From positions 1-64,000 of the forward strand of contig JAQVAV010000016.1 of assembly GCA_028690665.1 (NCBI GenBank): a stretch of DNA of 64,000 nucleotides, read 5' to 3'. The notes below the pieces were generated by a model. It had not been told where the DNA came from, ran no database searches, and worked only from the letters and a program-made list of their open reading frames with translations. Below, one piece after another: positions 2,209 to 24,950 of the stretch (the first letter of the stretch is position 1; every line of letters starts with the position of its first letter). Source of the stretch: Paludibacter sp. Its GTDB lineage: Bacteria > Bacteroidota > Bacteroidia > Bacteroidales > Paludibacteraceae. The translations under genes were made by a program, and so were the position numbers.

Positions 2209-3762
2209 TTATTCAGTTTCCTTTGTCAGCAAAAACTCTACTCTCCGGTTTTCCTGCCTACCTTCGTCTGTTTTATTCGTTGCCACAGGCTCGGCACAAC
2301 CTTTTCCATAACAGGTAATTCTGTCTTCTGAAATACCTTTCAAACGAAGGAACATTCCTACCTGTCTCGCTCTCGACAAAGACAGCCGGTCGTTATATTC
2401 CTTAGTACCAATAGAATCAGTATGTCCTGTAATTTCAATTTTCAGATTTTCATTTTTCTTTAGAATAACCATCAAATGCTTTAATTCCGGCATAGACGTT
2501 TTTTTGTAAAGCACTTCATTAAAATCAAAATACACATTATTTAAAATATATTTTCGATTCACTTCTGCTTTACTTCTCCGGCTAAATTTCAGTGGCCGGG
2601 CAGCAAAATCATAAACACGGACAAGTTCATGCTGAAAAGTAGGTAAGCCAAACTGGCATATCTCATTTCCAAGATCAATCGCATTAAATCTCAATCCGCA
2701 ACTATTTTCCCTCTCATCAGGCTTATCAATTACCGAAAGTGAATTCTTATTATAATCAGCAATATAAATCCGGCCATCGACAGCCAATTGAAAAGCGCCA
2801 AGATAATCTTTGTTCTTCCCTATCAGTTTCATAGATGTTTTTAGTTCCTGCTCTGTACTTTTAGAGTTGTCAATCTGATAAACAAACCCTTTCGACTCCA
2901 GTCCAAGATACATATAATGATTATCAGGAGAAAATTCAATTCCATAAGGATTGGAACCTTCTGGAAATTTCAGGGTACGCGGATTTGTCAATACACCTGT
3001 CTCGTTATCAAAATCAAAAATCTGGACAAGAGCATCACCAGTAATCGCCACTGCAAGTCGATTCTTGTCCATCGATATTTTCATATATCCAATAGTATTA
3101 AAACGTGATTTTTCATGTTTAATACCTATATTGGAAACTACCGGCTGCTCAGAAAGACCATCTTCAGTCAGCAGGTAAGCACAAAACGCATCCGAGTTAA
3201 ACTCATGTATAATGATCCACAAATCACAGTTATTAGCATGTTTTACAGCCACAATCCGTTCGGTACAATGTTTTTTGATGAACTTATTTTTCATCACAAC
3301 ATCACCCATGCCGGCGGCTTTCGACATATCCACTATGGATTGGCTAAATCCTTTTACTTCGGCTTCCCAGTCAAGCGTAAAAATATAGTACTGTGAATCG
3401 CTTCCCGGTCGCGGGACAATCACAACTGATTGTGTTGAAGATATGTGTCCGTTCAACTGAAAACCATTCGGCATCACCTCGTTATTCCTATTCCATACCG
3501 TAATTCCATCTGTATAAAACAACAAATTACCATTAGCATCCGAAATACAGGCGCAACCTTCTGTTGTATGAATCTTACTGTCATTGAATACTACCGGCTT
3601 TCCGGTACTAAAATCAAGACCGACACCATAGCCAAAGATCCAAGTTGAAGTTTCAAGCTGCGCCCAAATAACATACTGTTGGAATAATCCCAACAGAACA
3701 ATCAGGGCGATACGAGTATCAATAGCGCGAATTATCTTCAGAATCAGCTTCGTCATCCTCAT
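2209..3762 (-). CDS. OmpA-family C-terminal domain protein with N-terminal beta-propeller (T9SS/gliding-cargo-like repeats)
   Basis: C-terminus YFDFNEVLYKKTSMPEL...ITGHTDSIGTKEYNDRLSLSRARQVGMFL...GKGCAEPVATN is an OmpA peptidoglycan-binding domain; N-terminus W.FG...GLDFSTGKPV...EGCACISDANGNLLFYTDGITVWNRNNEVMPNG; signal-peptide-like start overlapping the 3' end of hisD. Confidence 0.88.
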   Translation of the reverse strand: MRMTKLILKIIRAIDTRIALIVLLGLFQQYVIWAQLETSTWIFGYGVGLDFSTGKPVVFNDSKIHTTEGCACISDANGNLLFYTDGITVWNRNNEVMPNGFQLNGHISSTQSVVIVPRPGSDSQYYIFTLDWEAEVKGFSQSIVDMSKAAGMGDVVMKNKFIKKHCTERIVAVKHANNCDLWIIIHEFNSDAFCAYLLTEDGLSEQPVVSNIGIKHEKSRFNTIGYMKISMDKNRLAVAITGDALVQIFDFDNETGVLTNPRTLKFPEGSNPYGIEFSPDNHYMYLGLESKGFVYQIDNSKSTEQELKTSMKLIGKNKDYLGAFQLAVDGRIYIADYNKNSLSVIDKPDERENSCGLRFNAIDLGNEICQFGLPTFQHELVRVYDFAARPLKFSRRSKAEVNRKYILNNVYFDFNEVLYKKTSMPELKHLMVILKKNENLKIEITGHTDSIGTKEYNDRLSLSRARQVGMFLRLKGISEDRITCYGKGCAEPVATNKTDEGRQENRRVEFLLTKETE

Positions 3763-6921: not shown

Positions 6922-8055
6922 TTAATTAGATAGAACCACAACATTAGCTCTTATACATAAAAATCGAAATAATTCTTCTAATTTTTCCTTATCTTCAATA
7001 GTATCTACATCTACGCGCATAAAACCTTTTGGCATATTTCTAATAATCTCTGACACCAATACAGGCAAGGTGTCATTATTAAGATCATTATAAAACTTCC
7101 GGGCATCTGCAGGTGTATAATAGATTTCAATTTTCTCAGCAAAACGAATTATTTTTTTTGAATCTGCTTTATAAAAGGATATTAGCTTTTCAAAATATTT
7201 AGTATAAGCGTTTTTAGTACGACTCTTCATACTTCTTACATTTGCTTCATAGCAACGAGCTAAATGTTTATTACCTGCCTTTCTTTCCAATACCGGGAGT
7301 AATATTTTATAACGACGATATACTTCTTTTTGAATCAATGGAAATGGGACAGTTAGATAATCAGATAAAAAGAAAATAGATCTGAACCTTGTAAAATACA
7401 CTTCAAAATTGCCAATAACTGAATTTGTATAATTTTGATCGTAAACACGATAATGATACCATGGGTATGGAGTATATTTCAAATTAAGACAGGAAACATC
7501 ATTTGAAGAAAATTTAAGCCAATATGGCATATAGTATTTAAAATAATTATACCGAACATTGACCTCAAACTTATTACGGCGGACAAAAAAATGATCAAAA
7601 ATAATATTAGAGCCTAAAAGAGTTAATAGTTTCTTTACTGCAGATTTGTCCATTCTCTTTGGAGCAGCAACAATTTCATCAGGTTTTCCCGAATCAAAAA
7701 ATTGATGAAAATCACTAAATAAACCATCAACCTCTGGATCTTCAAAATATTTTAAATTAACTTCAATTGTATCTGCACAAAACAAACTATCATCGGAATG
7801 CAACATAAGAACAAAATCACCTGTAACATAGGGGCATAAATTATTTAAAGCAACCAATTGTCCTTTGTTTTCCTGCCTAAAATAGAAAATACGGGAATCA
7901 TTAAATGTTCGAACTACTTCTTCTGTATTATCTTTACTTCCATCGTCCATAATAAGCAATTCCCAGTCTGTATAAGTTTGATCAATCACAGACTGAATAG
8001 ATGATGCAATGTGGGTTGCATCATTATATGTAGGCATTATAATTGAAGTTTTCAT
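6922..8055 (-). CDS. glycosyltransferase family 2
   Basis: SIIMPTYNDATHIASSIQSVIDQTYTDWELLIMDDGSKDNT N-terminal GT-A signature. Confidence 0.92.
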   Translation of the reverse strand: MKTSIIMPTYNDATHIASSIQSVIDQTYTDWELLIMDDGSKDNTEEVVRTFNDSRIFYFRQENKGQLVALNNLCPYVTGDFVLMLHSDDSLFCADTIEVNLKYFEDPEVDGLFSDFHQFFDSGKPDEIVAAPKRMDKSAVKKLLTLLGSNIIFDHFFVRRNKFEVNVRYNYFKYYMPYWLKFSSNDVSCLNLKYTPYPWYHYRVYDQNYTNSVIGNFEVYFTRFRSIFFLSDYLTVPFPLIQKEVYRRYKILLPVLERKAGNKHLARCYEANVRSMKSRTKNAYTKYFEKLISFYKADSKKIIRFAEKIEIYYTPADARKFYNDLNNDTLPVLVSEIIRNMPKGFMRVDVDTIEDKEKLEELFRFLCIRANVVVLSN

Positions 8056-8077
8056 TTACTTATTTAGATACAAGATA

Positions 8078-9058
8078 TTAAATAATTTTCAATCTTTTTC
8101 GTAGTTTATATATAAACATCTCGGAAACATACTCCGAAGTATAACTCATTTTTTGCTTAATAACAACTGGATTAAGAATGTTATTATTTCCATTTTCAAG
8201 CGACAAAATAAATTCTGAAACAAAAGCGAATAGATTGTACTTGTTTAAAATTCTTTTTTTTGAATTTAAAATAGAATTTAATTTGTTATCGTAATAATGA
8301 GGATCATCAACCAGTTCTTCTATAACTAATTTACTTCTATTAAAGTCATTAATATCAATTCTTTTATATGATTCAGCATCAAAATAATTTTCAAGATTTG
8401 GACAGCCATAATAAATTGGTAGTGTGTGAGCTAAAAAACAATCATTAATTTTCTCAGTAAAGTAATTATTTGTAAAACTATTTTCAATCGCAATAGAGTA
8501 TTTATATGGCGACAAAACATCCCATTTGTCATCAAACGGCTGAATTCCTCTTCCATATAGATCAATCTTATCTTTAAACACTTCCTTTAACTTCAAAGCA
8601 AAATACAATCTTTTTTGTTGTCCGGGCAAATTTATTTTGTTAGATGAAATAATAGATATATTGCGACTTTTCGGGACAAAATCAATTTTCGCCAACTCAT
8701 CGTGTGATTTTCCTACAAACCATTCTGATAAAGGGGGTGATAACACAGCATTTGAAAAATGGTTCAATATATAGCCTTGAAATGAAATAATATGAGCAAA
8801 CTGTTTTAAAAAAGCTTTTGGGTAAATTTTAACACTAAGAGGTTCAATGGCAATAAATATTGTATTTTCTTTAGGACAGTTAGTTTGCTGATCAAAATAG
8901 CCTGGCAAAAAGTTAAATACCAGCCAATAGTCGTATTTTGTATTATCAGAAGGAGGATTTAAAATATATACTATATCATTGCTGTATCCTGATTTTGGTA
9001 ACATTTTCATTAAAAAATCACTATTATTTTCAGGATAACTAATCTTAACTGTAATCAT
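8078..9058 (-). CDS. GT10 alpha-1,3-fucosyltransferase-like glycosyltransferase
   Basis: C-terminal YKYSIAIENSFTNNYFTEKINDCFLAHTLPIYYGCPNLENYF, typical of the GT10 donor-site region. Confidence 0.82.
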   Translation of the reverse strand: MITVKISYPENNSDFLMKMLPKSGYSNDIVYILNPPSDNTKYDYWLVFNFLPGYFDQQTNCPKENTIFIAIEPLSVKIYPKAFLKQFAHIISFQGYILNHFSNAVLSPPLSEWFVGKSHDELAKIDFVPKSRNISIISSNKINLPGQQKRLYFALKLKEVFKDKIDLYGRGIQPFDDKWDVLSPYKYSIAIENSFTNNYFTEKINDCFLAHTLPIYYGCPNLENYFDAESYKRIDINDFNRSKLVIEELVDDPHYYDNKLNSILNSKKRILNKYNLFAFVSEFILSLENGNNNILNPVVIKQKMSYTSEYVSEMFIYKLRKRLKII

Positions 9059-9059
9059 T

Positions 9060-10445
9060 TTATTTAATTGAAAATTTTTTAATAATAGAGATAAAATCTT
9101 TTATTTTTATATTAGATTCTTTAATCGTTTCCAATGGCCATTTCCAGTTCTGATATGCTGTCATGGTTATCCCCGGAGCCAAAATCATAGCGAGTACACC
9201 CAGATGAAAATAACGGAGCATTATCATCAACACGACAAGAGAAACCAGCCCGGATATTAAAACAGACTTAAAAAACGGAACCTCATTTTTAGTCAACAGC
9301 GTTGATGTAGAAATAGACTGACATGAATCTAAAAATCCAAAAACAAGCATTAACATCAAATATCCGGTACCAAGCAGGAACGTTTTACTATGAATAAGGT
9401 GTAACAATGGATTGCCCAATAATAGCAAACCGACTCCCGTAACAATAAAAACAAACAAAACAACCAGTAGCCCCTTAATATATAACCGTTTTACACTTTC
9501 AATATCATTTCTTACTCGATATTGCGTCAATTGTGGATAGAATGTTCCAAACCAAGTTCCACCCAAACTCATAATCAGGCTAATCACTTGCTTTGAAATT
9601 CCGTATTCGGCAACTTCTGCCAAAGAAAGATAGAACGGAGATATCATTGTTATTGCCTGATTCAAAGCAAAATATCCCAATGTTGTAAGTCCAATTTTAA
9701 AAGCATTTGGGGTCATTATTTTCATAACATCCTTCACTGGCATAGCTATGGCCCCCTTTATTCCGTCACGAATTTCTTTATCAAAAAAAACTTTATATGA
9801 CAAAACTCTGTTCACAACATCACTAATAAGTATTCCCAGAACCAAAGAGATTATTCCAAATCCAGACAAGAGCAATACCAATGTAGCTATAATTCTTAAT
9901 GACTGAGAAAATACAATAATCTGCATATTTTTTTTAATCAGACCACGTCCTGTCATCAACGAATTATAATAGTAAGTATAAAACTCGTATGCAACCAACG
10001 TTCCATAAGTGAACCAGGCAATCCAAATTTCTGTTTTTTCGCCTGAATACTTTTCAAGAATCGTTCCCAGATAATATGGACTAACCAGATAAAAAAGAAT
10101 TAAAAAAAGCAACGACATTAACCCATAATAAGTTCTCATTGCTTTAATTACACTTTTCAACAAGCTAAAATTAATATGTTCGTTTTTACTTTCAACTATT
10201 TTATACCCATGCACCTTCAACTCATCAACACCACTAAAGACATAGGCCACATTTCTGGAAAAAGAGTTTGAAAATCCAAAATCCATCAATGCTGTCAATG
10301 AGCTGACAGTCAAAAAAATACTCCACAGGCCAACTTCCTGCGAAGGCAAAAGCCTTAATACCAATGGAAGAATAATTATTCCAGAGGCTATACGCATAAA
10401 AGTTGCCAGATAATTCCAGAAAATATCTTTACGACCTGTGTTCAT
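9060..10445 (-). CDS. polysaccharide flippase (Wzx/MATE-like oligosaccharide translocase)
   Basis: 461 aa polytopic protein starting RKDIFWNYLATFMRIASGIIILPLVLRLLPSQEVGLWSIFLTVSSL; located in a glycan cluster. Confidence 0.87.
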   Translation of the reverse strand: MNTGRKDIFWNYLATFMRIASGIIILPLVLRLLPSQEVGLWSIFLTVSSLTALMDFGFSNSFSRNVAYVFSGVDELKVHGYKIVESKNEHINFSLLKSVIKAMRTYYGLMSLLFLILFYLVSPYYLGTILEKYSGEKTEIWIAWFTYGTLVAYEFYTYYYNSLMTGRGLIKKNMQIIVFSQSLRIIATLVLLLSGFGIISLVLGILISDVVNRVLSYKVFFDKEIRDGIKGAIAMPVKDVMKIMTPNAFKIGLTTLGYFALNQAITMISPFYLSLAEVAEYGISKQVISLIMSLGGTWFGTFYPQLTQYRVRNDIESVKRLYIKGLLVVLFVFIVTGVGLLLLGNPLLHLIHSKTFLLGTGYLMLMLVFGFLDSCQSISTSTLLTKNEVPFFKSVLISGLVSLVVLMIMLRYFHLGVLAMILAPGITMTAYQNWKWPLETIKESNIKIKDFISIIKKFSIK

Positions 10446-10452
10446 ATTTTAA

Positions 10453-11523
10453 TTATATTTTCTGAATCTCTTTAGCTGCAATCTCTGCTGCATGTCCCCT
10501 CCCATAAAGATTTAAAGAAAAATCCGATTTTCTATCTTTAAGAATATCAAATGCCGATTGTAGTTTTTCGGAATTACTCCCCACAAGTATATTAAAACCA
10601 TTATCGACAAGTTCAGTCCATTCTGTTTGTTCCCTTAGTGTTATACAGTGTTTTCCAAAGAAAAAAGCCTCTTTCTGTACCCCTCCGCTATCAGTTATAA
10701 CCAATTCACAACTCTTTAATAACATTATCATATCAAAATAGCCAACCGGATCAATAATCGTAAATTCCGGCAACTGAAAATTATGAGCAAGTATGTTTCG
10801 TGTACGCGGATGCATTGGAACTACAACAGGAATTTGCTTATTTATCTGATCCAATCCATGAATGATATTCCTTAAATTTTCAGGAGAGTCGGTATTTTCC
10901 TGACGATGTATAGTAGCAAGGACAAATTTCTTGAATCCAATCTTTTTTATAATACTGGATTTCAACATGGCTGATTCTGCATAAAACATAGCGGCATCCT
11001 GCATAACATCTCCATTTTTAATTATTTGAACAGGCATTGCATCAAAACCTTCTCTCTTTAGATTTGCAACAGCTGTATCTGTAGGGCAAAACAGCACATT
11101 TGAAATTCTATCTGTTAAAATTCGGTTAATCTCTTCCGGCATTTGCATATTGAATGAACGCAAACCGGCCTCAACATGTATTAACGGAATCTGTAGCTTA
11201 GAGGCAGCCAAAGCTCCGGATAAAGTCGAATTCGTATCTCCGTAAACCAACACACCATCAGGCTTTTCATTTTGAAGAATTGATTCAATACCCTCCAGCA
11301 TTCGACCAGTCATTGCCCCATGACTAAGGCCATGTATATCAAGATTGTATGCAGGTTTAGGTATTTCCATTTCCTCAAAAAACACTTGAGACATATTTTC
11401 ATCAAAATGTTGTCCAGTATGTACAATTTTTTCGTCTATACCACGTATTAAAAACTGACGGCTCAATGTAGCAGCTTTGATAAACTGTGGACGTGCACCA
11501 ACAATTGTAATAATTTTATCCAT
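10453..11523 (-). CDS. wecB: UDP-N-acetylglucosamine 2-epimerase (non-hydrolysing)
   Basis: VGARPQFIKAA, VHTGQHFDENMS, VYGDTNSTLSGALAA, HVEAGLRSFNMQMPEEINR, TDSGGVQKEA motifs. Confidence 0.95.
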   Translation of the reverse strand: MDKIITIVGARPQFIKAATLSRQFLIRGIDEKIVHTGQHFDENMSQVFFEEMEIPKPAYNLDIHGLSHGAMTGRMLEGIESILQNEKPDGVLVYGDTNSTLSGALAASKLQIPLIHVEAGLRSFNMQMPEEINRILTDRISNVLFCPTDTAVANLKREGFDAMPVQIIKNGDVMQDAAMFYAESAMLKSSIIKKIGFKKFVLATIHRQENTDSPENLRNIIHGLDQINKQIPVVVPMHPRTRNILAHNFQLPEFTIIDPVGYFDMIMLLKSCELVITDSGGVQKEAFFFGKHCITLREQTEWTELVDNGFNILVGSNSEKLQSAFDILKDRKSDFSLNLYGRGHAAEIAAKEIQKI

Positions 11524-11546
11524 AAATATTTATTCTGATAATAACA

Positions 11547-12842
11547 TCAATCTTTGTCCATAATCTGATTGACCAATAGCTTTGTAAGGTTTTCTCTGGA
11601 ATATTTTTCAATATCCTTACTTTCAACAAACAACTCATTTTTCTTAAACAAATTATAGTATTGAAGCATTGCTTTTTTCGTTTTATCAAGCTCATCAAAT
11701 CCCACAACAACTCCAGCATTTGTTTCCCTAATAATTGTTGCTGCATCTCCATGTACATGTGCAACACAAAATATGGGTCTACTTGCATTCAGATATTCAA
11801 AAAGTTTTCCGGTTAAGATATTTTCAGTTCCAGGCGTATTTACAAGCAATAATAGAAGTACTTGCGAGGCTTGTTGTAATTTGAGTGCTTCAGTGTGTGG
11901 AACATAAGATAATTTTTCCAGATTGTCCAACAAACCAGCATTTTCAATACTTTCAATCACAGGATAATCAATTTTACCAACTAATCTGATTATCAATTTT
12001 TTTTTAAATTCGGGAAATTCATCGCAAAGCTCTTTTAAAACTTTCCAAAGTAGCAACGGATTTTGTTTTTGAGTTAACAAACCTATATGAGAAAGTGTAA
12101 ACTTTGTATCTAAAGCTCCCTTTTCTGTCGGTTCTTGTTCATTATCATATCCATTGCTAATTACTGTTATTGGCACCGATGTTTGTTGTTCAAAATCCTT
12201 TTTCATTCCATTAGAAACAACAATAAGCTTATCTGCTTTCTGAAGAATTTTATTTTCTAAAAAATGATGTATTTTGTCGGAAATATAGCTTAAGTTCAGA
12301 TCTTTATAAAAATAAATTTTAGTCCAAGGATCTCTGAAATCAGCTATCCAGTTTATAGATGCATTCTTTTTCTTAAGTCCATATCCAATAAAATGCATCG
12401 AATGTGGAGGGCCGGTTGTAATAACCGTGTCTATATCATTTTCAGTAATGTACTTTGACAAGAATTTCACCGAAGGTCGAATCCAGAATACCCTCGGGTC
12501 TGGAATTAGAAAATTCCCGCGTATCCATATTGACAATCTATCTTTCCAACTAGCTTGAGATTTTTCAGAAATGAATCCTGCATTTATCGCTTCACCTTTT
12601 TTCCCTATAAGCTTCCTATATATATTATAAGGTTCCCAAATAGGACGTTTAAGAATGGTAATATCTGATGGGATATCGCTATCCATTGAATGATCTATTG
12701 ATGGATATTCCGGATTTTCTGGAACGTAAATAACAGGTTCAACACCAAATTTACGCAAATACTTCGTAAACTTTACCCACCGTTGCACACCTGAACCTCC
12801 GCTTGGTAACCAGTAGTATGTAATAATCAATATTTTTTTCAT
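11547..12842 (-). CDS. glycosyltransferase family 4
   Basis: MKKILIITYYWLPSGGSGVQRWVKFTKYL start and GKLFEYLNASRPIFCV C-terminal donor-binding region. Confidence 0.88.
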   Translation of the reverse strand: MKKILIITYYWLPSGGSGVQRWVKFTKYLRKFGVEPVIYVPENPEYPSIDHSMDSDIPSDITILKRPIWEPYNIYRKLIGKKGEAINAGFISEKSQASWKDRLSIWIRGNFLIPDPRVFWIRPSVKFLSKYITENDIDTVITTGPPHSMHFIGYGLKKKNASINWIADFRDPWTKIYFYKDLNLSYISDKIHHFLENKILQKADKLIVVSNGMKKDFEQQTSVPITVISNGYDNEQEPTEKGALDTKFTLSHIGLLTQKQNPLLLWKVLKELCDEFPEFKKKLIIRLVGKIDYPVIESIENAGLLDNLEKLSYVPHTEALKLQQASQVLLLLLVNTPGTENILTGKLFEYLNASRPIFCVAHVHGDAATIIRETNAGVVVGFDELDKTKKAMLQYYNLFKKNELFVESKDIEKYSRENLTKLLVNQIMDKD

Positions 12843-12849
12843 TCAAAAA

Positions 12850-13632
12850 TTAAATTTTTACAATGTAATATCCAGCCGTGGAGACAAAGTCTCTAAAATA
12901 AGGTATTGCAGATAGTACCTTCCATAACTTTCGGGGTTTTAAACCAAATTTTATCTGATAATTCGGGTTAATAAAATACAAGGTTTTCCGGACTATTTTG
13001 TAATCATTTTTAGCTACAATACGTTCAAAGCGATCCAAACTTATCCCTGTATCTTTAATTTCGGCCAATCCTTTGATTTTAGATTCACTTTCGCCAAAAA
13101 TTTTTAAAATAAATTTATACAACTGCATTGGCAATAAATGAAAATAAGGCACTAATGACAGAAATTTATTTTCACAAACCTGTTGATGCCCGCCAAATGG
13201 ATTCTGCCAGGGAGGAAATGCAAAAAAAGCAATTCCATCAGGTGTCATAAGCTTTTTCATCAATCCAAGGAATTTATCCTGATCGTGGATATGTTCAATA
13301 ACATCTCTTAAAATAATCAAATCAAATTTTGCTTCGAATTCCTTCACATTATAAATATCTTCGCTGATAAGCGTAATATTTTCTACATTGGGATCGGTAG
13401 CATAAAAAGCCTTTCCTTTTTCGATTTTCGGAGTGCTAAAATCGACTCCGGTACAAATACATCCGGCATCGAGGAAGGGCTTCAGATTACCGGCCTCTCC
13501 ACAACCGATTTCGAGTACCTGCATACCCCGTACAACAGGTTTTACCTGAGCAATATACGGAAGAACATATTTCTGGGTACTCTGTATTTGTTCGTTAAGA
13601 TAGCGTAAAGGATCGGAATGGCGTTTTTGCAT
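12850..13632 (-). CDS. class I SAM-dependent methyltransferase
   Basis: VLEIGCGEAGNLKPFLDAGCICTGVDFS, FDLIILRDVIEHIHD motifs. Confidence 0.9.
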   Translation of the reverse strand: MQKRHSDPLRYLNEQIQSTQKYVLPYIAQVKPVVRGMQVLEIGCGEAGNLKPFLDAGCICTGVDFSTPKIEKGKAFYATDPNVENITLISEDIYNVKEFEAKFDLIILRDVIEHIHDQDKFLGLMKKLMTPDGIAFFAFPPWQNPFGGHQQVCENKFLSLVPYFHLLPMQLYKFILKIFGESESKIKGLAEIKDTGISLDRFERIVAKNDYKIVRKTLYFINPNYQIKFGLKPRKLWKVLSAIPYFRDFVSTAGYYIVKI

Positions 13633-15302: not shown

Positions 15303-17528
15303 TCATTCCGACAACAATACTGATGAATTATAAAGACGCCTGTATCCTCCATCAAAAGACATTAACTCATCATGAGTTCCATGTTCGGTTATTGTTCCAT
15401 TTTCAAAAAAGAAAATTTTATCGACCCAACGGACTGTACTCAGGCGATGGCTGACAATAACTGCTGTTTTATCCCGACTTAAATTCTTCAGTCCATCTAT
15501 TACCTGCCGTTCCGAAGCTGCATCAAGTGCACTCGAAGGTTCATCCAATAAAATCAACGGAGCATCCCGGTAAAATGCACGGGCAATAGCCATTTTCTGC
15601 CATTGTCCTATACTTAGTTCTTCGCCCCCGCTAAATTGATTTCCCAACAAAGTTTCATACCCTTTCGGGAGTTGCTCAATAACATCTGCAATACCGGCAG
15701 CTTCTGCAGCAGTCATAATTAATTTCTTATCCGGTTCCTCTTTATAATTTCCCAAGGCTATATTTTGAAAGACCGGCAAATAGTAAAGTGCAAAATCCTG
15801 AAATACCGCAGCAATATTTTTGCGTAAAGTATCCCCGCCTATTTGTTTTAAATCGGTATCATCCAATAATATCTTCCCTGAATCGGGCTGATAAAATCCA
15901 CATAATAATTTTATTAAAGTAGTTTTTCCAGAACCGTTTTCTCCAACAAAAGCAACCGTTTGTCCTGCAAAAATCTCAATATTAATATCAGAAAGGGCAT
16001 TTCGCAGACTGGTTTCATAACGAAAACTCAGATTCTCAATTACAATTCTTTGCTTAAGTTCAAAATTTCCATGTGCATTAAAACTCTTATCTTCCAACAC
16101 AACAGAATTCAGAAAATCAACAAAATCATTCAAAAATACATTGTCCTCCACTATCCGTGTTGCGGAACGGAACAAATCGTTCATTACAGAATATCCTCGC
16201 TGAAAGGCAAAAAAGAAAAGCACAACCGTACCAATTGTAATAGCTCCGTTTATTTTAAGAAAAGAGACGTAACCCAATGAGCAAAAAATAAGCAAAACGG
16301 CAAACACCTGAGCATATATTTGGAGTTGAAGATCAGATTTTCTTATAATTATCTTTTCTTGGAAAAGCTGGTTTTGTAACTTTTGAAACTTTGTCCTGAA
16401 AAACCCCGGGAACTGAAAAAGTTTCATCTCTTTTGCGAAAGGGAAGCCAGTCAATACCCGGTTATAGTAATACATTTCGCGCTCACTTGCAGCCTGAGCT
16501 GTTTTCTGTTTATATAACCGGGAGGCAAAACGCAGCTGAACAAAAACTTCAGGCAAAACAGCCAGCATTATAATAAGTGCCAAATACCATTTAATAAAAA
16601 TAAAGATTCCCAGAAAAAACAGAGATGAAGTTATTGCCCTAACAACATTCAAAATTTCATTCAGAATTTTTTGAGGGCGATATGATGCTTCCTGGACTGC
16701 ACGATGAATTCTATTTTGCTTTTCGGGATGTTCATAAGCAGACAAATCAAGTCTGGCATGTTTATCATGGAGCCTCTGATAGACCTGTTTCGAAACAGAC
16801 TGCGAAAGTTTTTCGCCCCAATAAGCTCTAAATTCATTCAATAAGCCGTTTAATAAAAAAGCCAATGAGGTAAGTATCAACAAAACATAAAATCCGCAAT
16901 TTGATGCGTGTGCAAAATCTCCGTTGGTCAGATGATCTATTAATAATTTTATCAACACAATCACTAAAAAAGGCAGAACTCCTTGAAAAACGGAGATTAT
17001 TCCATTCAGAATAAAAATTCCGGTCGAGCCTTTCTGAATTATCCTGAGATTAGATTTAAGCGTACCGATTTTTAAGATTTTATTCTCAACATTCAGACGG
17101 AAACGATTAACACGAGAGCAAAGCATTGGTACAAGCAAAGCCATAAATCTATACAAATTCCAACGACTATTTCTGAGTTTGCACTTTTTACCAGCACGTT
17201 CAAAGCCAATAACCTTTCCAACAATGGACGATTCAGGGAAAGGTTTATCATAATACAGATTGTTGTCCCCTTTGGTTATGAATAAGTTTCCTTTTTTTCG
17301 AATAAGCCGGTGAGCTATATATTTTCCGGAATCATTCTTCATAACAACAATATCACCGTTTCTTATTTCGTTGAAACTGCATCTGATAATCAGCCCCCAA
17401 TCTCCATTCCTCAGCACAGGAAACATACTTTGACCGCTTAATTTAATTTTTAAACCAAAATCATTAGATAAAAGCTCCTCGGCCCAATCAAGTATCTGTT
17501 TTTCTGTATGATTTTTATCCATTGTCAA
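15303..17528 (-). CDS. fusion: N-terminal S24/S26 (SipW-like signal peptidase) domain plus ABC exporter (TMD-NBD)
   Basis: N-term KLSGQSMFPVLRNGDWGLI (Ser) and SGKYIAHRLIRKKGNLFITKGDNN (His); then TMDs; Walker A GENGSGKTTL, signature LSIGQWQKMAIARA, Walker B LILLDEPSSALD. Confidence 0.9.
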   Translation of the reverse strand: MTMDKNHTEKQILDWAEELLSNDFGLKIKLSGQSMFPVLRNGDWGLIIRCSFNEIRNGDIVVMKNDSGKYIAHRLIRKKGNLFITKGDNNLYYDKPFPESSIVGKVIGFERAGKKCKLRNSRWNLYRFMALLVPMLCSRVNRFRLNVENKILKIGTLKSNLRIIQKGSTGIFILNGIISVFQGVLPFLVIVLIKLLIDHLTNGDFAHASNCGFYVLLILTSLAFLLNGLLNEFRAYWGEKLSQSVSKQVYQRLHDKHARLDLSAYEHPEKQNRIHRAVQEASYRPQKILNEILNVVRAITSSLFFLGIFIFIKWYLALIIMLAVLPEVFVQLRFASRLYKQKTAQAASEREMYYYNRVLTGFPFAKEMKLFQFPGFFRTKFQKLQNQLFQEKIIIRKSDLQLQIYAQVFAVLLIFCSLGYVSFLKINGAITIGTVVLFFFAFQRGYSVMNDLFRSATRIVEDNVFLNDFVDFLNSVVLEDKSFNAHGNFELKQRIVIENLSFRYETSLRNALSDINIEIFAGQTVAFVGENGSGKTTLIKLLCGFYQPDSGKILLDDTDLKQIGGDTLRKNIAAVFQDFALYYLPVFQNIALGNYKEEPDKKLIMTAAEAAGIADVIEQLPKGYETLLGNQFSGGEELSIGQWQKMAIARAFYRDAPLILLDEPSSALDAASERQVIDGLKNLSRDKTAVIVSHRLSTVRWVDKIFFFENGTITEHGTHDELMSFDGGYRRLYNSSVLLSE

Positions 17529-18372
17529 TCACAAAATCAATGATATGGTTATCAGGTACAAAACCCAGCTCATAAACATTAACCGTCTGAATCATTTTGC
17601 TTAAAAAAGCCAGGTTACCAACAATAAAACTTTGAGAGAAATTATTTTGAATGCAAAAAGCTAATACTTTTGACACAGCAATTGCGCCTTCTATTTTGCG
17701 AATTTTATTTTCCGGGAAGTGCCTAATTAAAAATATGGACCTCAAGACAGTAGATTTCGGTACATCGGCATAATACATAGGTGTATTATACGCTACAAAC
17801 TCTTCTCCCTGACGACGGATAATTATCCTGTCATCGTTTATAACCTGATAGCCGACATCCTTCCATATTTTAGCCATTGTGCTTTTCCCTCTACCGGAAA
17901 ATCCGGCAAAAAGCTGTCCTGTCTTTCCATCGGTTACGCAGGCTGCATGAATCATCACTGCCTCTGAATTCACAGTCAGATATTGCATAATCAATGGGCC
18001 CATTGGGTAACGCAATGGATTTATTTTCCCGTTCGATAATAAGTCGGTATAAATTGTCCAATGCTTTAAATCAGAGCTTAACACGGCTAACTGCTGAATT
18101 TTTCCTTTTTCCTGCTGGTTATATATCAAAAAGGTCAACTCTTTTCCCGTTTGATAAATAGCATAAAAACGTTGCGATTCATTTTCTGCAACAAAAACAG
18201 CTTCACCCAATTCCAATGCCTCAGAAATACCGGCATAGCATGCAATTTCAACATCCGGAGTTTTATTCGACTGAGATTTAAAGGGGTAATACCCTTCTTC
18301 TAAAGAAATCTCGACCTCTGAATTCAAAGATAATTCAAAACCGGCAATTGCTATCTTAGAACTATATCTCAC
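17515..18372 (-). CDS. HPr-kinase-like P-loop protein (PqqD-associated HprK-related)
   Basis: LFAGFSGRGKSTMAKIWKDVGYQVINDDRIII P-loop and DD motif; between pqqD-like and ABC exporter genes. Confidence 0.8.
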   Translation of the reverse strand: MRYSSKIAIAGFELSLNSEVEISLEEGYYPFKSQSNKTPDVEIACYAGISEALELGEAVFVAENESQRFYAIYQTGKELTFLIYNQQEKGKIQQLAVLSSDLKHWTIYTDLLSNGKINPLRYPMGPLIMQYLTVNSEAVMIHAACVTDGKTGQLFAGFSGRGKSTMAKIWKDVGYQVINDDRIIIRRQGEEFVAYNTPMYYADVPKSTVLRSIFLIRHFPENKIRKIEGAIAVSKVLAFCIQNNFSQSFIVGNLAFLSKMIQTVNVYELGFVPDNHIIDFVIDNG

Positions 18373-18378
18373 CTAACG

Positions 18379-18654
18379 TTATTTTAGAGTTGCAGCTATT
18401 TTATTGAGAAATGTTTCAACATCTATTTTGGCAGTTTCTGCCTCAACATCAAACTCCTGAACCAATAAAGCAATAATATCCTCCTTAGTATTCTTCCCAT
18501 CAACTTGTTCCCAAATAAATTTTCCAGTCTCATTTAACGTAAATAAGACATTCATTTGTGCTACATTTCCACTCAACGGGACTAATACCAATTCATCACC
18601 AATTTCACGGGTGATATATTTCGATTTTAACTCAAACAAGAAATGAATATTCAT
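18379..18654 (-). CDS. PqqD-family protein (RiPP recognition element-like)
   Basis: 91 aa; YITREIGDELVLVPLSGNVAQMNVLFTLNETGKFIWEQVDGKNTKEDIIALLVQEFDV matches the PqqD fold pattern. Confidence 0.88.
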   Translation of the reverse strand: MNIHFLFELKSKYITREIGDELVLVPLSGNVAQMNVLFTLNETGKFIWEQVDGKNTKEDIIALLVQEFDVEAETAKIDVETFLNKIAATLK

Positions 18655-18673: not shown

Positions 18674-18705
18674 CAAAGATAAATATTATTTTATCTTCAA
18701 ACAAA
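18674..18705 (-). promoter_or_regulatory. candidate promoter for the pqqD/hprK/ABC operon
   Basis: minus strand TTTG-N20-TATCTTTG, close to the Bacteroidota TTTG-N19-TAnnTTTG consensus; begins in the T tail of the upstream hairpin. Confidence 0.5.
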
Positions 18706-18729
18706 GAGTCCCGGAAGCATCCGGGACTC
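18702..18729 (-). terminator. terminator/attenuator between peptide gene and pqqD-like gene
   Basis: perfect GAGTCCCGG-ATGCTT-CCGGGACTC stem followed by TTTGTTT on the minus strand. Confidence 0.8.
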
Positions 18730-18743
18730 ACTCTTCTTAGTCA

Positions 18744-18923
18744 TTACGCTAAATTTGTTTTATATGGATCATTCAATGAATTCTCCTGAAAATTTTTTGT
18801 TTCTCCAGGACCAGCTGGAGGAGTTGATTCAAGCTGTAATGAAATCTCATTATCAAGCTTAATCTCTCTAATTTCCGGTTGATGATAATTTCTTTTTTTT
18901 GTTATATTCATTTGAAGTTTCAT
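18744..18923 (-). CDS. 59-aa candidate precursor peptide (not in supplied ORF track)
   Basis: translated by hand: MKLQMNITKKRNYHQPEIREIKLDNEISLQLESTPPAGPGETKNFQENSLNDPYKTNLA*; starts 11 nt after the stop of the T9SS gene and is followed by a strong hairpin; next to PqqD/HprK/S26-ABC genes. Confidence 0.7.
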   Translation of the reverse strand: MKLQMNITKKRNYHQPEIREIKLDNEISLQLESTPPAGPGETKNFQENSLNDPYKTNLA

Positions 18924-18934
18924 ATTTTTAATAT

Positions 18935-21337
18935 TTATTTTATTACTATTTTTTGGAGTTTCGTATTCCCAGAATTTAGAGATCCCACAAAATAAACACC
19001 GGTATTTAATTTATCGGATATAACAGTTTTACCAACAACATCCCGTTCCATTATTTTCTGACCGACAGCATTATAAATCACAATTCTATTTTCGGTTTTT
19101 ACATTTACTACAATATTGTTTTGTTTATCTACATAAGTATAAAACGAATTATTTACTTTTTCATTCTCTGTTGTCGTCCCTGTCATTCTAAAAATAAGAC
19201 CAAAACGGTCTGTATTATCAACAATATCAGATATAAAAGTATAAAAATAGCCTGAAGAAATTTCCATTTCATCATTTATTAACTTATCATGCAGGTAAAG
19301 TTTTAATCCGGTTGCAAAGTTAGAAAATTCGGTTGACTTTATAGTAAAATCACCTTGTTCTCCTGTTCTGAAACCAAGGGGAATTTCCACATCAACCGGA
19401 ATCTGGTTCATTCCATTTATAACTAACTCGGAATTGTCTGCTTTTGTATAGATTTCAGGAATTACATCGTTTTCATTCGATATTTTTTGAGAATCATAAC
19501 TATCAAGATCATTATCCGCATTATCATTAAAATATAAAACGGTTTCATCTGTATTCTCCTGGTTTTCGACCTGAATTCTAACAACTTTGTTTAATGAAAC
19601 CTGAGGTGCTTTTAAAATATTGGCTGCAATATCCCGGTCTGCCCGGTCTGTCAATTTAAAGCCCAGACTTCCGGTTGTCGCATTTTCTACCCTAACCCAA
19701 AATGCTTGCATAGAAGGTACGAAATTAGTAACCCCGGCAGGAGAACCTATTTCCCCTCCTCCATAGCCTGCTTCTGAACCATTATAGGTATAAAACTTAT
19801 AGGAACTGCCCTCTTTGGTTCTATACCACATGGTATTATTTAAATAACTTTTTGTTAATGTATTCCAATTCAAATAGGCAGGATATGGATTTCCAACCAA
19901 ATTAAATCCTTCTTTTACCTGACCAGTTGTTCTGGTTAAATTAACGGTAGTATCCTTATTAAATATAGTTCCGGTAAATGTATAAACCTGCCCATTTGAG
20001 CTTCCTATTGAAGCAACATAGCCGATTCCATTTATAAATTCAGATGCAGTAGACCAGCTTGCACCGGCTTCATCTCTAGAATATAAGGCATTTCCAACAA
20101 CATCTGTTACTACCGCTGCACTCGCTGAACTAACAGGACTGGCAATATAATAATTTCGATCTTTTTTCAAAAATTGCTCTACATTATACGAACCGGATCC
20201 GGATATTGCAGAAGGTGTAATTAACGTTGCGGTTCCATTAATTGTATCTGATTGCAATGTAACTGTTCCATTATTGGTCAATACCCCGGCAACAGTAAGT
20301 TGTTTTCCAGCAGCTAAACTAATAATTCCATCAACAATCAAACTTCCAGAGGCCGCTCTATTGGTATTTAAATTTACTGTGCCTGAACTCACCGTTATAT
20401 TTTGTGGTACTTCCGTTGCTGACCAGGAATAATCATTGGCATTTACATCATAAGTAACTTCGGTACCCTGATTAAACTTCAAAATTGCTGTTGAATTATA
20501 AAAATTAGTTGGTGGCGCCGTCGAGACAAATCCTCCATTTCCAATTTCAAGAGTACCAGTAACACTAACGCCTTCACCAAATGAAACTCCTACATTCGAA
20601 CTGCCTGCCGTTTTATTTACCGTAATATTCTCAAAAGCAATAGTTCCAGAAACAACATGTATTGCATCTCCTGAACTTGGTTCTCCTGAAAAAACTACAG
20701 TATTTCCACCCAAGCCATTATCCCATGTTCCACTGTTTGACAGAGTTGAATTTGAACCAGAGATTGAATTATTAAGAGTCAAAATACGTGGAGAAGCATC
20801 ACTCGCGGTGAAAGTAGCACCAGAATTTATGGTGAGACTATAGATAGTAACATTTGCATCCAATGTTATATTATTAGCAATTATGTAACTTGCAGTAGCA
20901 GATGTTGGAACAAATCCATCGCACCAGGTTGACGCAGAATTCCAATAGCCATCTGACACCGTTGTCGGATTTATTGAGATTGCATAATTATTACTACTAT
21001 TACTATCCCAAACATCTGCGCCCCAATCATCCCAACCATGAAAATAATATTCTGTGGCAGTAGACTTAACGGTAATATTCGCAGACCATGTTGAATTATT
21101 TCCGTTATTATCTCCTTGCGTTAAAGAGTAAGCAACCCACGTTCCACCCTCATTTATTTGAACTTCTGCATGACAGCCCGAATAGCTATCATACATTTCT
21201 ACATAAAAGTATATTGTTTGAGAACCTTCTGGCTGTGAACCCGTAAAATGATTTCCCATCCATGATATTGTAGAAAAGACAGGTATCCTTATAAAAAGCA
21301 ACATAAAAAACAAATAAATGCACTTTTTAGTATTCAT
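18935..21337 (-). CDS. T9SS type A sorting domain-containing surface protein
   Basis: signal peptide; C-term NRIVIYNAVGQKIMERDVVGKTVISDKLNTGVYFVGSLNSGNTKLQKIVIK; shares C-terminal modules with the adjacent 1158-aa protein. Confidence 0.9.
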   Translation of the reverse strand: MNTKKCIYLFFMLLFIRIPVFSTISWMGNHFTGSQPEGSQTIYFYVEMYDSYSGCHAEVQINEGGTWVAYSLTQGDNNGNNSTWSANITVKSTATEYYFHGWDDWGADVWDSNSSNNYAISINPTTVSDGYWNSASTWCDGFVPTSATASYIIANNITLDANVTIYSLTINSGATFTASDASPRILTLNNSISGSNSTLSNSGTWDNGLGGNTVVFSGEPSSGDAIHVVSGTIAFENITVNKTAGSSNVGVSFGEGVSVTGTLEIGNGGFVSTAPPTNFYNSTAILKFNQGTEVTYDVNANDYSWSATEVPQNITVSSGTVNLNTNRAASGSLIVDGIISLAAGKQLTVAGVLTNNGTVTLQSDTINGTATLITPSAISGSGSYNVEQFLKKDRNYYIASPVSSASAAVVTDVVGNALYSRDEAGASWSTASEFINGIGYVASIGSSNGQVYTFTGTIFNKDTTVNLTRTTGQVKEGFNLVGNPYPAYLNWNTLTKSYLNNTMWYRTKEGSSYKFYTYNGSEAGYGGGEIGSPAGVTNFVPSMQAFWVRVENATTGSLGFKLTDRADRDIAANILKAPQVSLNKVVRIQVENQENTDETVLYFNDNADNDLDSYDSQKISNENDVIPEIYTKADNSELVINGMNQIPVDVEIPLGFRTGEQGDFTIKSTEFSNFATGLKLYLHDKLINDEMEISSGYFYTFISDIVDNTDRFGLIFRMTGTTTENEKVNNSFYTYVDKQNNIVVNVKTENRIVIYNAVGQKIMERDVVGKTVISDKLNTGVYFVGSLNSGNTKLQKIVIK

Positions 21338-21473: not shown

Positions 21474-24400
21474 TTACGGCACTACAATTTTAACAGTTGA
21501 ATTAATTTTTCCGGATATAGCCTTTATAAAATAAATACCGGAAGACAAACTTTGATCTAAAACAGTAATATCGCCAACAGACAATTCAGTAGCTACCTGT
21601 TTACCGGTAACATCAAATACCCGTATGTCAACAGGGTCAGCAATAGATGACATTACACAAATTTTTCCGGACTGGTTCAGATAAGCTTTTATAGTTCTGA
21701 CATTCTCTTTCTCCAAAGCAGTAGTCAAATCTTTAGTTTTCAATAACAATGCAAAACGATCAGTAATATTCTCTACCGCATCCGAACTGAAACTATATGA
21801 TTTTTTTTTGGTAACATCTTCAATTTCATTATTATATTTATCTAAAATAAATATCTGAAATGACTGTTTTAAGGCCTCACTCGATTCCATCTCTATACAG
21901 AAAGTGCCTTGTTTCCCAGTTGTAAAACCAAGTGGAATTTCATTTTGCATATCACTAATTCTAACATTCCGGATCACCATATTTTCATTATTCTTCACGG
22001 TATAAATCTCTGGAATTTCGGCATTTTGATTACTCATTTTCAGCGCATCAAAATCACTGTCATATTCAGAATCGGGCCTTATCACCAAAATTGTTTCATC
22101 TGAATTTAAGCCATTCGAAATGCTGATTCTTAAAATTTTATCCAGTGATACGGATTTCATTTTTAATCTATTGGTTTCTACTTCATGTGTACGTAACGCA
22201 TTTGTAAAATTTACCACGCCAGTTTTACTTCCATCCGTCACTTTTACCCATACGCTTTGCATAGGAGGAATCATTCCGGTAACTGCACCTAACTTATTAT
22301 TATTAGTTCCTATTCCATTAAAAGTATCAAAAACATAATTTCCTGCAAGATTTTTTGTTCTGTACCAAATGGTATGGTCTACATCAATTTTTTCAGCTTC
22401 AGACCAATCTAAGTATGATGGATAAGGATTTCCCAATAAATTATAACCTTCTTTTTGCTTTCCGGCTGTTCGTGTCAAAGTAACAGACAAATCTCCATTG
22501 TTTAACTTTGTTCCGGTAAATTCAATATAATTTGAACTCGCTGTTTGTTTTGTTATAAATCCCATTGCAGGGGAAAGATCAGACCCGATTGAAATTAATT
22601 CCCAGTATTCTGTTTCAGGAGAAACGTAGTCTATATTATTGCCAGGTTCATCATATTTATAAATTGTAAAACCAGCTGGAGCCGGAGCATTATATACAGG
22701 GGACGACATATACCAGTTACGAACTGAATTAAGGAATTGACTCACAATATAATTTCCTGTTCCTCGCATCTCCTCGGGCGTTAAAATAGTAGCTAATTCA
22801 ATTGAATTTGAAAATAATTTTATAGTACCATTATTCGTAAAATTAGAAGTACATGTCAGATTTTTTCCGGCGTTGATTGTAAGCATTCCGTTAACGATCA
22901 AGTTCTCTATTGTTACATCTCCATTCAATGCAATAGAATGACCACTCTGAATTTCCACTAAGCCATCTGTATCAGGTTCAGAACCCGCATCAATCCAAGA
23001 GTTTCCTCCATCAACAGATTTAGTCCAACAGCTTGAACTTTCCCAAATTCCACTTGCTTTTGTTTTATAATACTTTGTAGGTTTGTGAATTGTATTGCCG
23101 GGAATTGAGATTGTCACACCCGAAGGGACTGAAGGGCCATAATTTTGATCAAAAATATTGGATATCGTTATAATGCCGGGACCACCTTTTGTAAAAGATG
23201 AATTTGGCTGCTTAAAATATGGTACCGATATATTGGAATCAGCAGTAAATATTTTTCCAGATCCGGTAAAAATTAACCATCCGGAACCAGAACAATAAAA
23301 TGGTTCATACCCTCCTTTAGACACAGTTATGTTTCCTCCTATAAAAATGCTTCCATCACTATATTCAATACGGGAATTCCATTCATTTGGAGTATTTGTA
23401 AAATCTCCGATAATAGTCAAATTATTCGATCCAACGCTTACTGAACTTTGATTTGTGAGAGACAAACTACCATTAACCATAAAATCATGATTAAGAATCA
23501 AATGACTATTATAAACCGTCATATCTAATCCGGCACAGGAAAGGTCTAGTACATCGACCGTAACGGTATGTCCCTGACAAAATATAACAGTATCAACAGA
23601 AGTAGGATATGAACCGGAATTTGTACTTCCACCACATCCTTCCGTTGTCCATGTCGATGGAGTTGTCCAATTGCCTGATTGCCTGGAATAATACTTTTTA
23701 GGTTTATTACTAAACGTCGCTTGCTCAGAATACGTGACTCCGGAACTGTTTTTTGCATACGCTTTAAAATAATACGTAGTGTTTGGCGATAAATCTGTTA
23801 CCGGTAAAAGATATTGGCCAAGTCCGAAATTTCCTGCTTCTGCAATCCGGATTCCAGCTCCGTCTGCAAAACCATCGATCGTACTTACATAAAAACCTCT
23901 TTCTGATATTACATCCGAACTACAACCGGTTAATGTCACAGTAGCTCCCAAAGTAGCGGTTGTACCCGTTATGGCAGAACTAATCAATGAGTCAACTTTG
24001 GGTACCACATTATAAGATCCGGCACCTGTTACCTGTATATTTACACTCTCGGCTCCTCCTCCGGTGACAACGATATTACCATTATACAACCCATTAGCAT
24101 CCGGAGAAAATTTTACAAAAATAGTTTGAGAAAAATTTCCTCCATTTTGATCAAAAGTCAATGTTGTTGTATATAAGCCATCATTCGATGTTGATAGTGT
24201 ATATCCATCTGGAACTGTAACATAAATATCCTGATCATACAACCCCAATCCGGAAAGTTCAAAAAATTGAACATCTGAAGTTAAACCGGGACAAACAACT
24301 CCGAAATCCATCGAATCGACAGCTGACAATGTCGAAGCACATGGTGTCGCATGAATTTTAGTTGCTGCTGTAGTATTGATCCCCGAAGGTATTGATGACT

Positions 24401-24950
24401 GAAAACAATTATAATCATATACTCCGGAAACCGTCAACTCTGTTGTATTATTGAGGACGAAAGCAAATGACGAAGAACCAACCCGAAAGTTAGCAATTTC
24501 TTTTTCTACATAAAACATCGGTATCGTTCCGTTTATTTGCAAATATCCGGTAGTCTGAGAAATAGTTGATTTATTCCCCCAGTCAACAGACCAACTATTT
24601 TCCACCACTAAATCAAAATCACCTAAGTTAATTACACTCGCAGAACCAGTGTTATCAAAATACAAATTTGCACAAGTTGCATCTTCTGTAAGTGTTATAG
24701 TAACAACATTTCCATTATTAGCAATATGCGCATTATCTCCACTCTGGGGATAAGTACCTGCATTTCCCACTCCATTCCAACCACCATCCGTTGTCCATGT
24801 TTCTGGACTATTCCACAGACCGGATTGACGCTGATAGTAATCAGTAGCAAAAAGAAATCCGGCATAAAAAACAAAAAATACGACAGTAAAAAGAAATTTG
24901 CATCCCGGCAGTTTAGTTTCAACGCAGGACGGACGACAAATTACACCCAT
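21474..24950 (-). CDS. large T9SS type A sorting domain-containing surface protein with internal repeats
   Basis: C-term VDIRVFDVTGKQVATELSVGDITVLDQSLSSGIYFIKAISGKINSTVKIVVP; three repeats of the type YYxRQSGxWxxPxTWTTxG...P.S.D; the true start may be downstream of the annotated M. Confidence 0.88.
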   Translation of the reverse strand: MGVICRPSCVETKLPGCKFLFTVVFFVFYAGFLFATDYYQRQSGLWNSPETWTTDGGWNGVGNAGTYPQSGDNAHIANNGNVVTITLTEDATCANLYFDNTGSASVINLGDFDLVVENSWSVDWGNKSTISQTTGYLQINGTIPMFYVEKEIANFRVGSSSFAFVLNNTTELTVSGVYDYNCFQSSIPSGINTTAATKIHATPCASTLSAVDSMDFGVVCPGLTSDVQFFELSGLGLYDQDIYVTVPDGYTLSTSNDGLYTTTLTFDQNGGNFSQTIFVKFSPDANGLYNGNIVVTGGGAESVNIQVTGAGSYNVVPKVDSLISSAITGTTATLGATVTLTGCSSDVISERGFYVSTIDGFADGAGIRIAEAGNFGLGQYLLPVTDLSPNTTYYFKAYAKNSSGVTYSEQATFSNKPKKYYSRQSGNWTTPSTWTTEGCGGSTNSGSYPTSVDTVIFCQGHTVTVDVLDLSCAGLDMTVYNSHLILNHDFMVNGSLSLTNQSSVSVGSNNLTIIGDFTNTPNEWNSRIEYSDGSIFIGGNITVSKGGYEPFYCSGSGWLIFTGSGKIFTADSNISVPYFKQPNSSFTKGGPGIITISNIFDQNYGPSVPSGVTISIPGNTIHKPTKYYKTKASGIWESSSCWTKSVDGGNSWIDAGSEPDTDGLVEIQSGHSIALNGDVTIENLIVNGMLTINAGKNLTCTSNFTNNGTIKLFSNSIELATILTPEEMRGTGNYIVSQFLNSVRNWYMSSPVYNAPAPAGFTIYKYDEPGNNIDYVSPETEYWELISIGSDLSPAMGFITKQTASSNYIEFTGTKLNNGDLSVTLTRTAGKQKEGYNLLGNPYPSYLDWSEAEKIDVDHTIWYRTKNLAGNYVFDTFNGIGTNNNKLGAVTGMIPPMQSVWVKVTDGSKTGVVNFTNALRTHEVETNRLKMKSVSLDKILRISISNGLNSDETILVIRPDSEYDSDFDALKMSNQNAEIPEIYTVKNNENMVIRNVRISDMQNEIPLGFTTGKQGTFCIEMESSEALKQSFQIFILDKYNNEIEDVTKKKSYSFSSDAVENITDRFALLLKTKDLTTALEKENVRTIKAYLNQSGKICVMSSIADPVDIRVFDVTGKQVATELSVGDITVLDQSLSSGIYFIKAISGKINSTVKIVVP

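Follow-up and report, generated by a model that had tools for sequence, protein, structure and literature searches.

The window, by which we mean the whole stretch of 64,000 nucleotides analysed here, contained a group of minus-strand genes in which a short peptide gene was located between a gene for a large secreted protein and genes for putative modification and export functions. The features are given here in their order along the minus strand.

18935..21337, minus strand: gene for a T9SS-type secreted protein of 800 aa with a C-terminal sorting-signal-like domain (TIGR04183, 22.9 bits)
18744..18923, minus strand: gene for a candidate precursor peptide of 59 aa (matching hand translation, family alignment, Ser/Thr at Tyr+20)
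18707..18730, minus strand: GC-rich hairpin after the peptide gene, a likely terminator or attenuator (folding compared with shuffles)
18674..18705, minus strand: match to a -33/-7 promoter of the Bacteroidota type, TTTG-N20-TATCTTTG, ahead of the RRE gene (pattern match only)
18379..18654, minus strand: gene for a PqqD-type discrete RRE of 91 aa (PF05402, 2.3e-18)
17515..18372, minus strand: gene for an HPrK-like kinase of 285 aa with a GTG start (H142, P-loop GFSGRGKST, N179-D180-D181-R182)
15303..17528, minus strand: gene for a 741-aa fusion of a SipW/S24-S26-type serine peptidase with an MsbA-like ABC exporter (GQSMFP, AHR, KGDNNLYYD)

The first-pass annotation had claimed a 59-aa open reading frame at 18744..18923, and a frame with exactly the translation it gave was present. 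The coordinates were right, but the strand had not been stated; the frame is on the minus strand, while the plus strand of this segment contains many stops and is not open. It was also correctly noted that the gene starts 11 nt downstream of the stop codon of the T9SS-type gene (18935..21337) and that a strong hairpin begins 15 nt past its own stop. The hairpin is a perfect, GC-rich stem of 10 bp with a folding energy of -23.6 kcal/mol (z -6.2), and no shuffle was equally good. A search for the pattern TTTG-N20-TAnnTTTG gave a match between the hairpin and the RRE gene. Since the peptide gene is followed by a hairpin and then by a promoter pattern, the T9SS-type gene and the peptide gene look like one unit and the following genes like another, and we infer that the first two are cotranscribed. 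The peptide gene was thus rightly described as the terminal gene of a T9SS unit, but its assignment to that operon alone missed the RRE, the HPrK-like kinase and the fused S26 peptidase-ABC exporter, which are functionally tied to the peptide. The TIGR04183 score of the 800-aa protein was just below the cut-off of 23. A second T9SS-type protein of 1158 aa was encoded upstream of it (21474-24950, minus strand), with no peptide gene seen behind; the 2 proteins share a similar region ahead of the C-terminus (GYNLLGNPYPSYLDW versus GFNLVGNPYPAYLNW).

We identified 2 more copies of the peptide in the same genome, on another contig, and gathered 72 distinct peptide sequences from fetched Bacteroidales loci, several of which were near-identical paralogs of one genome. 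Purifying selection, for which a dN/dS check had been proposed, was evident from values of 0.05 to 0.18 in most of the informative close pairs, with a value of 0.57 in one. Neither frameshifts nor stops were seen in homologues among the listed family members; the stops inside some profile matches fell outside the ATG-to-stop frame in those members that were read. Given the 2 paralogs, the 72 distinct members and the purifying selection in close pairs, the gene is more than a chance frame and is real, as had been suggested. The peptide had no match in Pfam or NCBIfam, and a search of its profile against PDB sequences gave chance matches only.

A profile search of 393 Bacteroidales genomes found the family in 35, and in 16 of these there were at least 2 matches. 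Its leader has the form YxxPx[IV]xxIx[LI]Dxx[I]S[L], followed by Ser or Thr at exactly Tyr+20 and then by a variable Pro/Gly-rich tail. In the peptide studied here these elements are Y13-P16-I18...L23-D24...I27-S28-L29, S33 at Tyr+20, a tail starting with PPAGPGE and a C-terminal NDPYK. The Tyr was present in 71 of 72 leaders, and the spacing from it was fixed: Pro at +3 (72/72, in part because the pattern served to place the sequences), an aliphatic residue at +5, mostly Ile or Val at +8, Leu or Ile at +10, Asp at +11 (70/72), Ile at +14 and Ser or Thr at +15 (86%). Position Tyr+20, which is itself contained in the profile used to gather the family, was Ser or Thr in all 72 members (Thr in 17), compared with 15% Ser/Thr in the tails. 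Furthermore, D+11 and S+20 were kept in 4 peptides that came from a genus of another class and had been left out of the profile. The conserved Ser/Thr points to phosphorylation, and S33 is the predicted phospho-acceptor; alternatively, the position could be one that determines cleavage.

The layout of a leader and a Pro/Gly/Ser/Thr core proposed earlier agreed with the family alignment, but the YxxPxI motif, immediately ahead of the segment called the leader, had been missed, as had the conserved Ser/Thr at Tyr+20. The short LDNEISL...PP peptides that had been mentioned do exist in Bacteroidales. Thioether or lanthionine chemistry had been considered unlikely, and we likewise rejected these classes as well as rSAM RiPPs: the peptide contains no Cys, only 1 of the 72 cores does, and no LanM/LanB or rSAM enzyme is adjacent. 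Two family members from genome G382 (L138:912-1085 and 3526-3738) are YxxP...SG peptides (APLLMGSG) encoded behind Rpn-family transposase-like sequences, with no T9SS neighbour and no strong kinase match. They look like a different YxxP group, possibly a separate family of short Bacteroidales peptides.

The predicted model of the RRE (pLDDT 90) had its best fold matches in the lasso B1-leader complexes TbiB1 and TfuB1, and the profile matched LppB (9X8Z) and PbaB1 (9X90) by sequence. In LppB, N33 and D70 hold the leader at its Pro and Tyr (PMC13381572). The RRE residues N41 and D78 align with these 2 residues and were invariant in 9 aligned RREs, whereas PbaB1, with its preference for WxxP, carries Gly and Gln at the aligned positions; the 18-residue offset of the deposited chains applied here is our reading of their numbering. 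As judged from the alignment, the Asn/Asp pair fits the Tyr of the leaders.

The fold matches of the predicted kinase model were HPr kinase and PEPCK, and the kinase keeps the His, the P-loop Lys-Ser/Thr and the Asp-Asp residues that matter in BsfK, the kinase that phosphorylates core Ser3 of BsfA, located at Tyr+19 (PMC10368454, PMC8498205). All 3 peptidase motifs, with Ser, His and Asp, were present in the window protein; in 30 relatives, GxSMxP and HR were each found in 28 and KGD..D, by pattern, in 16. The best match of the exporter domain was TIGR02203 (2.4e-91), below its equivalog cut-off. The order PqqD-(peptide)-kinase-peptidase-ABC was kept in many Bacteroidales, with the peptidase and the ABC domain either fused or split, and the peptide gene was located inside or just before the cluster, in several genomes between the RRE and kinase genes. 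An NTP_transf_5 protein (PF14907) of about 390 aa was encoded beside the cluster in several relatives (G001, G411, G086, G250, G144 and others) but not in the window. The only PF14907 match in the Paludibacter genome is on another contig (G000:C24:85244-86002, L144), with no RRE or kinase of the system apparent nearby. A polysaccharide-type gene group was observed at 6922-13632 (minus strand), with GT2, GT10 fucosyltransferase-like, UDP-GlcNAc 2-epimerase, GT4 and methyltransferase genes and a gene for a 461-aa protein without a Pfam match; it is separated from the cluster by gltX.

The co-occurrence of the peptide and the kinase across genomes was nearly perfect. With a strong kinase match defined as over 100 bits, 27 of the 393 Bacteroidales genomes contained both, 8 only the peptide, 3 only the kinase and 355 neither (Fisher p 2e-31; counted by hand from 2 listings, with related genomes not independent). 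Two of the 8 genomes without a strong kinase match were less than 80% complete, and one or two of the peptides in these 8 genomes may belong to another family. In 327 genomes from across the phylum, strong matches outside the Paludibacter genome itself were found only in 2 genomes of a single genus outside the order, both with peptide and kinase. One genome of the genus Paludibacter itself that had no kinase also lacked the peptide. NTP_transf_5 occurred in 27 of 32 genomes with the kinase, against 7 of 32 that lacked it (p 9e-7). The precursor genes were dispersed, often with several per genome. In the complete genome G001, which may serve as a model for the system, the peptide and kinase genes were 1.2 Mb apart, which means that in this genome the machine has to work in trans.

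The peptide genes were also linked to T9SS genes. Among 61 distinct testable upstream same-strand neighbours of peptide copies, 50 had a Por_Secre_tail match (E<=0.05). With a background of roughly 5% of genes, an estimate that was assumed in the binomial, this adjacency is far from chance; the Paludibacter genome itself had at least 150 Por_Secre_tail domain matches. Among the exceptions were 2 copies downstream of tsaD and a small number downstream of other genes. In a Paludibacter-labelled MAG (L044:1-9287), 3 tandem pairs of a T9SS gene and a peptide gene were followed by the RRE and kinase genes.

The best explanation, in which we have good confidence, is that the gene at 18744..18923 encodes a precursor from which a linear, phosphorylated RiPP is made, a Bacteroidota version of the type known as linear polyphosphorylated peptides (LPPs). 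By analogy with characterised systems, the neighbouring genes very probably phosphorylate, cut and export it. The PqqD-type RRE would bind the leader through Y13xxP16xI18 and present the peptide to the HPrK-like kinase, which would phosphorylate S33, and the NTP_transf_5 enzyme may extend the phosphate by a sugar or nucleotide-derived group. The SipW-like Ser-His-Asp peptidase would then remove the leader by a cut that probably falls within Tyr+15 to Tyr+20, and the ABC domain to which it is fused would export the Pro/Gly-rich core. One such machine would serve several precursors whose genes are spread around the chromosome, and as a rule each of these would be produced along with a T9SS-secreted protein. 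The site of action of the modified peptide is therefore probably the cell surface, where it would work with the T9SS protein or in the same response. A further reading, possible but doubtful, is that each modified peptide, carrying a phosphate or phosphoglycosyl group added in trans by the shared machine, is the dedicated partner of one T9SS surface protein, for example by binding or being attached to it at the outer surface.

The YxxPx[LIV] leader and the discrete RRE are hallmarks of lasso peptides, and paeninodin-like and bsf lasso clusters contain both an HPrK-like kinase and a nucleotidyltransferase. The Thr at position -2 of lasso leaders has a spacing from the Tyr that matches the Ser/Thr preference at Tyr+15. 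The peptide could then be a lasso precursor whose cyclase and B2 protease are encoded elsewhere in the genome. However, the B2 family PF13471 was absent from the Paludibacter genome (G000), G001 and G052, and it exceeded the cut-off in only 4 of 30 genomes with the kinase; no Asn-synthetase-like cyclase was found among the window cluster genes, and the tails lack a conserved Gly1...Asp/Glu7-9 ring pattern. We rejected the lasso class on the PF13471 and cyclase results, and consider this origin very improbable.

A small and conserved protein that belongs to the T9SS unit and stays unmodified by enzymes, such as a chaperone, regulator or secretion accessory, would account for the T9SS genes upstream of most copies and for the persistence of this link where the machine is distant, as in G001. 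Yet the peptide tracks the kinase cluster, being absent from nearly all kinase-less genomes, and in several genomes it is encoded within the cluster, between RRE and kinase, which makes this reading unlikely, though less so than a lasso origin. Compatible with the phosphorylated precursor that we favour, as a further step, is a final group larger than phosphate, such as a phosphosugar placed on the conserved Ser/Thr by the HPrK-like protein and NTP_transf_5. The co-occurrence of the 2 proteins and the phosphoglycosylation of pseudomycoidin (PMC8498205, PMC10368454) argue for it, whereas deletion of lppN had no detectable effect in a heterologous LPP test (PMC13381572) and the NTP transferase gene is outside the cluster here. 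We regard this addition as possible but doubtful.

Literature searches on RiPPs combined with T9SS and on the name PF14907 brought up nothing relevant, and the parts of a survey of Bacteroidales RiPPs that we consulted (PMC10352776) report no PqqD-HPrK clusters. If true, the T9SS partnership would link RiPP chemistry to type IX secretion, for which these searches found no report. The proposed system would also account for short Bacteroidales proteins of the form YxxP...DNEISL...PP that match neither Pfam nor NCBIfam.

In comparison with known systems, the partner gene belongs with the T9SS cargo genes (Por_Secre_tail, TIGR04183/PF18962), whereas the peptide is a separate frame without a sorting signal. 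The phosphorylated lasso peptides paeninodin, pseudomycoidin and bsf of Bradymonas share the RRE (B1), the HPrK-like kinase, the nucleotidyltransferase, the ABC exporter and the YxxPxL leader, but here there are no ring residues, lasso cyclase or B2 protease, and the leader is presumably removed by the serine peptidase.

The LPPs (lppA-K-B-S-D-N, Paenibacillus alginolyticus; Nat Commun 20 May 2026) are known only since May 2026, are of unknown function and were stated to be restricted to Bacillota (PMC13381572). In LPPs the kinase phosphorylates core Ser3 several times and LppS has a Ser-His-Asp catalytic set, and their loci are often within capsule loci (PMC13381572). In the window we find the discrete RRE with the Asn and Asp of LppB, the HPrK-like kinase, the SipW/archaeal-type signal peptidase with Ser-His-Asp and the MsbA-like exporter (albeit below the TIGR02203 equivalog cut-off). 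Further likenesses are an inventory without a cyclase, a YxxP leader, a conserved Ser 18 to 20 residues past the Tyr, a variable C-terminus and, in this single case, a nearby polysaccharide locus (6922-13632). The NTP transferase of the LPP clusters has a counterpart beside the cluster in several relatives and on another contig here. The LPP leader consensus is YxxPxVLxHQxIxFETxxS, and the phosphosite S3 of LppA is at Tyr+18, where LppK did not accept S3T (PMC13381572). By contrast, only YxxPx[VIL] is common to both leaders, the downstream motif IxLDNEISLxLxS and the spacing differ, and the predicted acceptor is Ser or Thr 2 residues further out. The host is a member of Bacteroidota, the peptidase is often fused to the exporter, the NTP transferase gene is often not adjacent, and the precursors are dispersed, occur in several copies and are linked to T9SS proteins, features not found in PMC13381572. 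Because the leader consensus differs and the NTP transferase is outside the cluster, we do not assign the system to the LPPs in the strict sense but refer to it as LPP-like, a term based on the 4 defining parts recognised in the sequence and implying no claim of common descent. A similar logic would thus exist in Bacteroidota, and a single machine with scattered, T9SS-tied precursors would give a first functional lead for LPPs, towards the cell surface and a T9SS partner.
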